Assembly (NCBI RefSeq): GCF_014925385.1
Contig: NZ_JACSDK010000001.1
Span: 62,001 to 126,000, forward strand
Length of the DNA: 64,000 bases
Reading direction: 5' to 3'
Source of the DNA: Pelagibius marinus
GTDB lineage: Bacteria; Pseudomonadota; Alphaproteobacteria; Kiloniellales; Kiloniellaceae
Of the stretch, positions 2,358 to 49,577 are shown piece by piece. The number at the start of each line of letters is the position of its first letter. Position 1 is the stretch's first letter. A program made the position numbers and the translations under genes. The notes under the pieces are model-generated. The model saw only the letters and a program-made list of their open reading frames with translations, did no database searches and was not told the origin of the DNA.

Positions 2358-3059
2358 ATGACGCCCCCCACCGCCCCTGATGCTTCCCGAAGCGCCCCGC
2401 GCAAGGTGGTGCTGTTCGGCGCCGGTGACTTCGCCAGCCTGGTCTGGTTCTGCCTGACCCACGACAGCCCGCACGAAGTGGTGGGCTTCACCGTCGACGG
2501 CGCGGCCTTGAAGAGCGGGCGCCTGCACGGCCTGCCGGTGGTGCCCTTCGAGAACCTGGAGCAGCACTTCGCGCCGCAGGACCACGACCTGCTGCTCGCC
2601 GTCGGCCCGCACCAGGTGAACGGGCTGCGCGCAGATCGCTACGAGGCGGCAAGGGCCCGGGGCTACGGCTTCGCCAGCTACGTCGCCAGCGGCGCGCGCA
2701 GCTGGCCGGACCTGTCGCTCGGCCCCGGCAGCCTGGTCTTCGAGAACGCGGTGATCGAGCCCTTTGCGGAGATCGGCGCCAACTGCGTCATCCGCGCCGG
2801 GGCGCAGATCTCGCATCATGCCCGCATCAGCGACCATGCTTTCCTGGCCCCCGGCGTGACCCTGGCCGGGGGGTGCCGGATCGGCACGCGGAGTTTCCTG
2901 GGGGTGAGGGCGACGCTGCGCGACGGCATCACCGTGGCCGACCGCTGTATCGTCGCCGCCGGCGCCCTGGTGGCCCGCTCGACCGAGCCCGGCGGCCTCT
3001 ACGTCGGCGTGCCGGCGCGGCGCAGCGGCGACGCCGAAGGCGTGAAGATCTTCTCCTAG
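2358..3059 (+). CDS. NeuD-like sugar O-acyltransferase (left-handed beta-helix)
   Basis: This 233-residue protein starts with a small Rossmann-like module (VVLFGAGDFA near residues 17-26). From about residue 110 it continues with hexapeptide repeats forming a left-handed beta-helix, visible in stretches such as LGPGSLVFENAVIEPF and IRAGAQISHHARISDH. It ends in the usual GGLYVGVPAR. This layout is that of NeuD/PglD-type acetyltransferases, which transfer an acetyl group to a sugar or nucleotide-sugar amine or hydroxyl. A DegT-type aminotransferase in the same cluster makes an N-acetylated amino sugar plausible. The TAG stop codon is the left end of repeat copy A. An earlier in-frame start at 2196 would add a non-homologous leader and is rejected. 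Confidence 0.8.
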   Translation: MTPPTAPDASRSAPRKVVLFGAGDFASLVWFCLTHDSPHEVVGFTVDGAALKSGRLHGLPVVPFENLEQHFAPQDHDLLLAVGPHQVNGLRADRYEAARARGYGFASYVASGARSWPDLSLGPGSLVFENAVIEPFAEIGANCVIRAGAQISHHARISDHAFLAPGVTLAGGCRIGTRSFLGVRATLRDGITVADRCIVAAGALVARSTEPGGLYVGVPARRSGDAEGVKIFS

Positions 3060-3166
3060 AGCGTCCCCGCCGCGTCCGGGCGGGCGCGGACAAGTTGCTC
3101 CGACCGTTTTAGATAGATCAACTTATCCTCGACCAGGTGTTTCCCTCTGACAGAGGATTGACCTAG
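3056..3166. repeat. CTAG-ended double-hairpin repeat, copy A
   Basis: The element fills the whole gap between two convergent genes. It starts with CTAGAGC and ends with GACCTAG. It aligns from end to end with the copy at 49471-49577, including the shared blocks GCGGACAAGTTGCTC, AGATAGATCAA and TTATCCTCGACCAGGTG. The first hairpin pairs GAGC/GCTC and an inner GC-rich arm, with a 4-base ACAA bulge; the second has the TTAT bulge on its left arm. The second hairpin has decayed compared with copy C. The terminal CTAGs provide the TAG stop codons of both flanking genes. Confidence 0.8.
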
Positions 3167-15157: not shown

Positions 15158-15784
15158 TCAGTTGCGTGGCGCGTACTTGGCCAGAATGCGCTGCAGCGTG
15201 CGCCGGTGCATGCGCAGTCGCCGGGCCGTCTCCGAGACGTTGCGGTCGCACTGCTCGTAGACCCGCTGGATGTGTTCCCAGCGCACCCGGTCGGCGGACA
15301 TGGGATTGCAGGGCGGCGGCGGCAGCGCCTCGCCCCGTTCCAGCAGCGCCGCTTCCACCTGGTCGGCGTCGGCGGGCTTGGGCAGGTAGTCGGTCGCCCC
15401 GACCTTCACCGCCGCCACCGCCGTGGCGATGTTGCCGTAGCCGGTCAGCACGATGATGCGCGCATCCTCGCGCGCCTCGCGCAGGCTCTGCACCACCTCC
15501 AGACCGGAGCCGTCCTCCAGGCGCAGGTCGACCACCGCGTAGCTGGGCGCAAGGCGGCGCGCCAGGGCCAAACCGTCGGCGACGCTGTAGGCGGTCTGCA
15601 CCGTGAAGCCGCGTCGCTCCATGGCCCGCGCCAGCCGGTCGCAGAAGCGCTGGTCGTCATCGACGATCAGCAATTCGCGCGGCGCACCCTCGGGCAGGGA
15701 CGATTCCCTGTCCTGGGGATCGTCCCCATCCCGGGACTCTTCCCTGTCTTGGGTCTCCCCCTGCGGGTCCGAGTGACCTGTCAT
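15158..15784 (-). CDS. regA: redox response regulator RegA/ActR/PrrA
   Basis: The 208-residue protein has a receiver domain with the phosphoacceptor Asp86 in YAVVDLRLEDGSGLEV and the acidic pocket LLIVDDD. A Fis-type DNA-binding helix-turn-helix follows at the C terminus (NVSETARRLRMHRRTLQRIL), the hallmark of RegA/ActR/PrrA. It differs from the usual family length by an acidic, Asp/Glu/Arg-rich N-terminal extension of about 35 residues. It lies downstream of its sensor gene on the same strand, separated by a 142-bp gap almost filled by repeat copy B. The system globally controls respiration and energy genes in alphaproteobacteria. Confidence 0.92.
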   Translation of the reverse strand: MTGHSDPQGETQDREESRDGDDPQDRESSLPEGAPRELLIVDDDQRFCDRLARAMERRGFTVQTAYSVADGLALARRLAPSYAVVDLRLEDGSGLEVVQSLREAREDARIIVLTGYGNIATAVAAVKVGATDYLPKPADADQVEAALLERGEALPPPPCNPMSADRVRWEHIQRVYEQCDRNVSETARRLRMHRRTLQRILAKYAPRN

Positions 15785-15825: not shown

Positions 15826-15930
15826 CTGGACCGATCCTCTATCAGGCGGACGCCTTTGATAGAGGATAAATTGGTCCATCTCAAAAGGTCAGGGCACCTC
15901 ATCCGCCCGGACGCGGATAGGTTGCCCTAG
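15826..15930 (-). repeat. CTAG-ended double-hairpin repeat, copy B (inverted)
   Basis: Read on the minus strand, this copy begins CTAGGGCAACC and keeps the core ACCTTTTGAGATGGACCAAT and the TTAT bulge before CCTCTATCA. The second hairpin pairs TGGACC...CCTCTATCA with TGATAGAGG...GGTCCA. The arm sequences differ from copies A and C but pairing is kept. The far end reads CCAG instead of CTAG. The element occupies the regB-regA gap, and its CTAG supplies the regB stop codon. Confidence 0.75.
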
Positions 15931-17321
15931 GCCTTCCTGCGTTCACCGGCCAAGAGGCCGCCGTCCATCGTTTCCAATGCCGGCCGGCCCGGCGCCTGGA
16001 CCACTTCCAGGCTGCCGCGCGGCCAGCGGATCTCCACCACGGCGCCGCCGGCGACGTCGTTCGAGAACTCAAGCGTCGCCCCATGATGGGCCAGCAGCGT
16101 GCGGGCGATGAAGACACCGAGGCCCATGTGCTGCTCCTCGCCGCGCCGCCGCGCGCGGGCGCCCGTCGAATAGTAGGGCTCGCCGAGACGGCTGAGAACC
16201 GTGACGTCGAAACCCGGCCCATCGTCGGCGATGCGCAGCATCACCGACTCCTCGTCCCAGGTCAGCTCCACCAGCACGCGGTGCCGGGCGAATTGCACCG
16301 CGTTCTGGATCAGCGTGCCGACGCCGTGCAGCACCTCGGCGTTGCGCGTCACCGTGGGCTGCGGCGCGCTGCTGTCGACCGCCGGCGCGGCGGTGATCTC
16401 CAGCTCCACGCCGTCGCGCCTGTGCGGCGCCGCGGCCGCCTCGACCAGCGCCACCATGGGTAGCTGGTGATAGGGCGAGCCGTCGTCGCCGGCGGGGCGT
16501 TCGGCCAGGCCGGCGAGGATGGAGCGGCAGCGCAGCGATTCCGCGTGCAGCAGCTCCACGTCCTCGCGCAGCGGCGAATCCGCCGGCAGTTCGCGCTGCA
16601 GTTCGCGGGCCACCACCGCGATGGTGCCCAGCGGCGTGCCGAGTTCGTGCGCCGCGGCCGCGGCCAGGCCGCCCAGAGCCGAAAGCTGCTGTTCGCGCGC
16701 CAGGGCCAGCTGCGAGGCCGCCAGCGCCTGCGACATGCGCTGGCTCTCCTGGGCCACGGAGGAGACATAGGAAGCGATGAAGACCACGGCAACGACCAGT
16801 GCCGCCCACACGCCGGCGATATAGGTCGGCGACAGGAGGATGCCCGGCGCGGACCAGGGCAGGGGCAGGTACCAGACGCCCAGGAAGGAAACCAGGCAGA
16901 CCGCCATGGCCGAAAGAATCAGCGTGCTGCGCCGCGACAGCGCCCAGCCGGAGATCACCACCGGCGCCAGGATCAGAATCGAGAAGGGGTTCTGCAGTCC
17001 GCCGGTAAGGCACAGCAGCGCCGCCAGCAGCACCAGGTCGAAGCAGAGGTTCCAGAAGGCCTCGCGGTCGCTGGCCCAGGTCGCCGTGGGGCGGGCGAGG
17101 CTGATCACCACGTTGAGGGCGCCCGAGACGGCGATCACCGCCATGGCGGGAATGAAGGGAATCTCATAGCCGAGACCGAAGTAGACCACGGCCAGGCTGG
17201 TCGCCTGTCCGAGCAGGGCGATCCAGCGGATCAGCACCAGGGTCCTGAGCCGCAGGCGGCCCTGCTGGGTCGCAGCGATCCCCGTTGTCCACCCCGGATC
17301 TAGGCTGTGGGTTTCGGCCAT
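15927..17321 (-). CDS. regB: redox sensor histidine kinase RegB/ActS/PrrB
   Basis: This 464-residue membrane kinase has six hydrophobic segments in residues 25-185. The quinone-binding motif GGLQNPF is at 107-113. The H-box AAAAHELGTPLGTI carries the phosphoaccepting His225, and the redox-active Cys265 lies in ESLRCRSILAGL. Both positions match the numbering known for Rhodobacter RegB. The ATPase part shows NAVQFARH, IADDGPGFD and GLGVFIARTLL. It phosphorylates RegA when the quinone pool and cytoplasm are reduced. Conservation of both redox elements predicts a normal, responsive sensor. Confidence 0.94.
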   Translation of the reverse strand: MAETHSLDPGWTTGIAATQQGRLRLRTLVLIRWIALLGQATSLAVVYFGLGYEIPFIPAMAVIAVSGALNVVISLARPTATWASDREAFWNLCFDLVLLAALLCLTGGLQNPFSILILAPVVISGWALSRRSTLILSAMAVCLVSFLGVWYLPLPWSAPGILLSPTYIAGVWAALVVAVVFIASYVSSVAQESQRMSQALAASQLALAREQQLSALGGLAAAAAHELGTPLGTIAVVARELQRELPADSPLREDVELLHAESLRCRSILAGLAERPAGDDGSPYHQLPMVALVEAAAAPHRRDGVELEITAAPAVDSSAPQPTVTRNAEVLHGVGTLIQNAVQFARHRVLVELTWDEESVMLRIADDGPGFDVTVLSRLGEPYYSTGARARRRGEEQHMGLGVFIARTLLAHHGATLEFSNDVAGGAVVEIRWPRGSLEVVQAPGRPALETMDGGLLAGERRKA

Positions 17322-49470: not shown

Positions 49471-49577
49471 CTAGAGCAACCCGCGTCCAGAGGGACGCGG
49501 ACAAGTTGCTCTAACCTTTTAAGATAGATCAATTTATCCTCGACCAGGTGATTCCACCTGGTCGAGGATTGATCTAG
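49471..49577. repeat. CTAG-ended double-hairpin repeat, copy C (best preserved)
   Basis: Both ends are CTAG. Hairpin 1 pairs AGAGCAAC with GTTGCTCT and CCGCGTCC with GGACGCGG around AGAG, with ACAA bulged on the right arm (49473-49512). Hairpin 2 pairs TAGATCAAT and CCTCGACCAGGTG with their exact complements around ATTC, with TTAT bulged on the left arm (49525-49576). The linker CTAACCTTTTAAGATAGATC is conserved with copy A. The element ends 10 bp before the moeB start codon. Confidence 0.85.

Follow-up and report, generated by a model that had tools for sequence, protein, structure and literature searches.

Double-hairpin intergenic elements of Pelagibius marinus form part of a CIR-type MITE lineage probably mobilised by IS630-family transposases

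The window analysed here, a stretch of 64,000 nucleotides from Pelagibius marinus (contig NZ_JACSDK010000001.1), contains three copies of a double-hairpin intergenic element. This element is a real mobile repeat of a CIR-type MITE lineage, decayed in the genome from which the window is drawn. On the basis of shared ends and target, such elements are very probably mobilised in trans by IS630-family transposases (Tc1/mariner superfamily) at the TA of CTAG. The first-pass annotation of the window matched the repeat to no known family, a view that cannot be kept given that CcrM-associated intergenic repeats (CIR; Chen and Shapiro 2003) are in print. These are described, in the available text of a review, as intergenic repeats of Alphaproteobacteria of approximately 110 bp, with two inverted-repeat arms, a linker, GANTC in the loop, and terminal TA (PMC2229807). 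Compared by description rather than by letters, the elements studied here agree with that account: they have the same length, arms, linker, and TA termini (copy A being decayed), they carry the loop GANTC in six of ten copies of the window genome and in 49 of 74 distinct elements of a wider set, and they are intergenic in Alphaproteobacteria among the matches listed. They differ in that GANTC is confined to these six of the ten copies, with none in copies A and B. They also differ in that IS630 is proposed here as the mover; the available text of the review gives none and says that more must be learned about how CIR repeats move (PMC2229807).

All three copies lie between called open frames, at the places and with the lengths first reported. 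Copy A (3056..3166, forward strand, 111 bp) is full length and decayed, copy B (15826..15930, reverse strand, 105 bp) sits between regB-like and regA-like genes, and copy C (49471..49577, forward strand, 107 bp) is the best preserved. Their mean column identity is 84% when aligned. The two bulged stems claimed for the best copy were recovered: copy C folds into two nearly perfect stems, with four unpaired bases on one arm of each. In hairpin 1 (49472..49513, forward strand), the outer stem is formed by the TIR TAGAGCAAC and its inverted copy, and the ACAA bulge is on the 3′ (right) arm. Hairpin 2 (49525..49576, forward strand) is bulged on its 5′ (left) arm, where the register of the four bases is ambiguous (ATTT/TTTA/TTAT). 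The stems of copy B have changed with pairing retained, as the annotation had noted. Its description of the ends as CTAG applies to both ends of copy A, but not to the right end of copy B, which reads CCAG on its own strand. RNA folding gave z-scores of −12.4 for copy C and −6.9 for copy B, with none of 200 shuffles as good for either; copy A folds no better than shuffles, either as RNA (z −1.0, 34/200 as good) or as DNA (z −1.3, 22/200). A loose element pattern matches once in the window, at copy C, versus no matches in 100 shuffles. Searching the window against Rfam at gathering thresholds yielded one tRNA and no match on the elements.

The window genome (5.44 Mb, 35 contigs) holds ten full copies and several half copies, as opposed to only the three first seen. 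BLAST with copy C finds nine places at E<1e-17 and copy B more weakly (8e-8), with the ten full copies 74–90% identical to copy C; a covariance model built from the ten copies gives the same total, though these ten matches are its training set and are not independent of the BLAST count. Five more places hold mainly hairpin 1 (L020, L021, L022, L024, L026), and in the first of these hairpin 2 looks to have been lost by deletion between GATC repeats. Within the bacterial family of the window, 11 of 23 genomes, including its own, have a match at E≤0.1, representing four of five genera. Many of these elements have different stems on a common plan, with sizes near 107, 119, 129, and 141–143 bp. The plan runs CTAGAGC, a stem with a 3′-arm bulge, GCTCTAAC, a linker, TAGAGC or TAGATC, a 5′-arm bulge, a stem, and CTAG. 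Each element consists of two predicted mirror-image hairpins, usually bulged, each bounded by the TIR and its inverted copy. The bulge is usual rather than obligatory, since some copies have lost or filled it (L103, L180, L182).

Scanning named genomes with the pattern gave at least 110 loci. Among the matches listed, 107 of 111 passed the fold cut, and those that passed, with the exception of one from Nodosilinea, belong to alphaproteobacterial records or to records named only to phylum. Host groups among the matches listed include Caulobacteraceae, Phenylobacterium, Kiloniellales, Hyphomicrobiales, Sinorhizobium, Pseudochrobactrum, and Brucella. The four listed matches that failed the cut (Shewanella, Helicobacter, two Winogradskyella) were rejected, as was the Nodosilinea match, which passes the cut and has no second arm. 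The record titled Bacillus subtilis SK6B4 (JAHREI010000001.1, L149), with its Pseudochrobactrum-type element at 53% GC, probably bears the wrong name. Seven viral contigs match the loose pattern, and in only one of them (L088) were two arms seen by eye.

The suggestion that the structure is under selection is supported most clearly by comparison across lineages. In an alignment of 11 elements from several lineages, double changes occur at 21 of 39 pairs and 92.7% of cells are paired. The covariation score is 0.445 versus 0.193, and none of 500 shuffles scores as high, although these shuffle figures are not probabilities given that the rows are related and the structure is taken from one of them. 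Sliding the structure along the alignment drops pairing to 28–36%, and the number of further pair types in this set is not above that of shuffles (38 vs 38.2). Four rows (S. psoraleae, Pseudochrobactrum, B. pituitosa, S. chiapasense) were removed by eye before the count because hairpin 2 was misaligned in the Brucellaceae rows and gapped in the Sinorhizobium rows. Covariation within the ten copies of the window genome is modest, with double changes at 10 of 39 pairs and a level reached by 3 of 500 shuffles. As judged by these alignments, maintenance of the structure across lineages is supported.

Presence and absence at matching sites point to mobility, as the first-pass annotation anticipated. 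The gap orthologous to that of copy A is empty in a relative (genome G016), where 54 bases stand in place of query bases 728–878. Full copies number 21 on a single plasmid of Sinorhizobium chiapasense; identity to the query copy is 95% or more in 19, and three of the plasmid's loci (217, 218, 221) were compared with relatives. A single CTAG is present at the empty site of locus 217 in S. mexicanum and S. terangae, and of locus 221 in S. terangae, where S. mexicanum could not be aligned; the net gain per insertion over these sites is 103 bp. At locus 218, the empty site reads CTG in S. terangae; S. mexicanum and two S. fredii have CTGG there. The target may be less strict than CTAG, or else a mutation had created CTAG at this site by the time of insertion. 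Where copies stand in tandem, they have one CTAG in common (L251, L137). At another locus (L072, G022 C2:534683-534926), an element of the 107-bp class directly adjoins one of the 141-bp class, and the two model matches overlap by four bases.

These observations bear on whether the element might instead be a non-mobile DNA or RNA feature maintained by the host, such as a bidirectional terminator, an mRNA-end hairpin, or a CcrM-linked regulator. Conserved pairing across lineages, the frequency of GANTC in one loop, and the six of ten window-genome copies that end a frame of at least 150 codons would all suit such a role. We nevertheless consider it improbable in view of the near-identical copies scattered in one plasmid, the empty sites in relatives, and the tandem copies; presence in 11 of 23 family genomes is a further sign of mobility. 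The mobile and host-used readings are compatible, as the host may use mobile copies.

The same evidence separates the two forms of trans-mobilisation that had been suggested, through REP or MITE-type elements. REPINs consist of two inverted, usually bulged hairpins of approximately 100 bp in all, and in RAYT/REPIN systems the Y1 transposase gene is flanked by the same hairpins. The element resembles them in its two inverted bulged hairpins, and the window genome contains one Y1_Tnp gene (L321, G000:C18:34176-34466; IS200-like/RAYT-like). However, the 3.3-kb locus of this lone gene contains no element, CTAGAGC end, or model match, and the single-CTAG empty sites, the net gain of 103 bp, and the IS630-like ends and target suit a DDE transposase. 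Judged from the Y1 content of the window genome and from these sites and ends, it is very unlikely that a RAYT/Y1 transposase moves these elements as single-stranded DNA, and the REP side of the suggestion is not supported. Support for the MITE side comes from the number of copies, the empty sites, and a transposase family whose ends and target match those of the elements.

That family is IS630, which provides a candidate for the CTAG-specific enzyme the annotation proposed looking for, in relatives and not in the window genome. A search of 13 genomes or records for IS630-type DDE_3 domains was positive in nine, including the S. chiapasense plasmid and S. psoraleae; the window genome, G022, G024, and G028 gave no such domain, and all four have elements or source loci thereof. 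Of 22 DDE_3 loci, seven have GCTCTAG shortly behind the domain, and two full IS630 elements of approximately 1,050 bp with TAGAGC inverted repeats were recovered. With one intact protein as query (NCBIfam IS630, 215.9 bits versus a cut-off of 100), relatives were identified in 18 of 61 genomes of the window’s order, with no match in the window genome. Right ends at 25 IS630 loci, several of them copies of one element, read GCTCTA in 18 cases, GCTTTA in three, ATCTA in two, and GCTCTG in one, with no end at the remaining locus. Where the left end was also read, 13 of 17 are flanked by C and G, i.e. lie in CTAG. Likeness between MITE and IS ends continues past TAGAGC, with a mean best identity of 5.28/8 versus 4.54 for shuffled IS ends (maximum 5.12 in 500). 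The longest common run, TAGAGCATTTTCCGAT, is shared by Phenylobacterium or Caulobacteraceae MITEs (L100, L140, L132) and an IS of G042, and TAGAGCAGATCCTG is common to MITEs of G016 and G021 and an IS of S. psoraleae. Long matches of this kind are between genomes; within a genome, the likeness is mostly TAGAGC alone.

In the proposed mechanism, an IS630 transposase would recognise TA-GAGC…GCTC-TA ends and insert the element at the TA of CTAG, and duplication of this TA would recreate CTAG at both ends. The first base of the element is G and its last is C, so that insertion would leave a TAG stop of the target intact on either strand. The accessible text of PMC2170065 states that IS630 inserts at TA with duplication, and the title of one of its references gives a preference for TA in CTAG. 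Insertion at TA with duplication is supported by two of the three Sinorhizobium loci. Our confidence in the IS630 reading is slightly lowered by locus 218 and by the weak likeness of ends within genomes. The mechanism does not account for the conserved bulges and near-perfect stems. Since no IS630 was detected in the window genome, its copies look like relics.

On a Sinorhizobium plasmid (NZ_CP133152.1), a left and a right end 1.8 kb apart were considered as an autonomous partner. This reading was rejected, as the two ends belong to one element (L245, 162412-164275) that an IS with the TIR GGGTCAGGAC has interrupted at a CTAG inside it. We take this IS, by eye from its protein sequence, to be IS5-like; the arrangement recalls IS711 in Bru-RS. 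A second 106-bp double-hairpin family with ends CTACAGC…GCAGTAG has many copies on the same plasmid (L246, L247, L250, L252, L253, L254), and the copy checked contains no GANTC. An IS5-family transposase with a YTAR/CTAG target might itself be thought to move the element; according to the accessible text of two papers, IS711 inserts at YTAR with TA duplication and reportedly favours Bru-RS (PMC3163539, PMC2266754). This is very unlikely given that the one such insertion seen here, at L245, sits within an element and has a TIR unlike TAGAGC.

A GANTC, the site of the methylase CcrM, further connects the elements with IS630 through its fixed position. Copy C has it as GATTC (49550..49554, forward strand) in the hairpin 2 loop, at a distance of 23 nt from the TA that ends the copy on the right. 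Counting from the T of this terminal dinucleotide, all 14 distinct IS630 left ends have a GANTC beginning at exactly position 23, and in these ends positions 7–22 are only 36–64% conserved; one further IS (L293), missed by the end pattern of this count, has a left end with GANTC at the same position. Among distinct right ends, any GANTC within 60 bases occurs in 1 of 18. The MITEs have the site at position 23 of one end in the window-genome copies that carry it (C included), in 16 of 23 elements of the family set, and in 49 of 74 distinct elements of the wide set, far above the number in shuffles (mean 0.6, maximum 4 in 1000). In the class of approximately 103–118 bp it lies at the right end, whereas longer elements mostly have it at the left. 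Common descent from an IS left end accounts for this position. Because the site survives through divergence, a function is suggested.

One such function would involve CcrM. The window genome encodes a CcrM-like methylase, for which the best NCBIfam match is CcrM (NF050803) at 643.5 bits, below the curated cut-off of 830, and Pfam N6_N4_Mtase and RAMA domains score above their own cut-offs. The GANTC at position 23 suggests, rather than shows, methylation-gated transposition. We tentatively propose a CcrM switch built into the IS630 group of Alphaproteobacteria and into its mini-elements, by which transposase expression or end binding would depend on methylation and be tied to hemimethylated DNA behind the replication fork. 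Dam methylation controls IS10 and IS50, and a CcrM counterpart is proposed here. If correct, this would provide a reason why CIR repeats have GANTC at all. A real alternative is that the motif is a protein-binding GAATCG and not a methylation site: the middle letter is A in 12 of 14 IS630 left ends, and the site is followed by G in 86%. In 39 short-class MITEs, the middle letter is A in 26, C in 10, T in two, and G in one. As a control, related transposases were found in 5 of 369 gammaproteobacterial genomes; at these five loci only, GANTC at position 23 is absent from two with clear TACAGC ends (L317, L319) and present in one (L316), and the other two have no clear ends (L318, L320). The position-locked GANTC appears to be new, and it offers an inexpensive test of transposition control by a cell-cycle methylase.

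Several known repeats are similar to those described here. RIME1 (Rhizobium-specific intergenic mosaic element) comprises two palindromes over approximately 108 bp. The accessible literature describes it as a rhizobial intergenic palindromic repeat (PMC2573895, PMC2245857), and elements of the same build occur in Sinorhizobium, the likeness being one of host group, size, and build. Bru-RS1/2 are described, in the texts available, as palindromic intergenic repeats of 103–106 bp in Brucella (PMC2267715, PMC10800456, PMC3163539, PMC2266754, PMC2677664). Elements of our build are present in Brucella pituitosa, B. grignonensis, and Pseudochrobactrum, again agreeing in host group, size, and build, and their stems are unlike those of the window copies. 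RUP of Streptococcus pneumoniae, at 107 bp, has a TA target and proposed trans-mobilisation by IS630-Spn1 with like TIRs, as given in the accessible text of PMC2229807 and PMC3049150. It differs in phylum and letters, its TIRs pair in a duplex with one another as opposed to forming two separate arms, and no GANTC feature appears in the parts of these descriptions available. The available text of PMC9296519 treats GANTC and IS630 as separate topics. Within the literature available to us, most subscription papers being beyond reach, no paper links these alphaproteobacterial repeats to IS630. CIR, RIME, and Bru-RS have been described separately; given a common build with the ends and target of IS630, mobilisation could be tested using a single transposase and a single mini-element.

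The elements are closely fitted to gene ends. CTAG is rare in the window, which has 35 occurrences where base frequencies would give 189 and a Markov estimate gives 86. Each terminal CTAG of copy A (3056-3059, 3163-3166) provides the TAG stop of a convergent open frame. Both ends do so, for frames of at least 150 codons, in three of the six window-genome copies mentioned above (A, 690844, C15). Open frames in GC-rich DNA are not proven genes, and the counts are read with this in mind: of 14 terminal CTAGs with an intact TAG, nine end a frame of at least 150 codons versus a mean of three in the other two frames, and at 30 other window CTAGs examined the figure is 16 of 60 end-frames versus 11. 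In the wide set, a frame of at least 100 codons is found in the TAG frame at 34 of 99 left ends (versus 20 and 13 in the other frames) and at 20 of 50 right ends (versus 14 and 5). Retention of a TAG stop on either strand, which follows from the terminal G and C, helps to explain why the element lies at gene ends; stop-preserving insertion into CTAG is a possible reason for the tight fit of such repeats between convergent genes. Copy C ends 10 nt before the ATG (49588) of a moeB/thiF-like gene, and its hairpin 2, lying in the leader of this gene, may affect translation. Copy B is flanked, on the reverse strand, by the genes of a regB/actS-like kinase (15927-17321) and of a regA/actR-like regulator (15158-15784), and its CTAG at 15927-15930 supplies the stop codon of the kinase gene.
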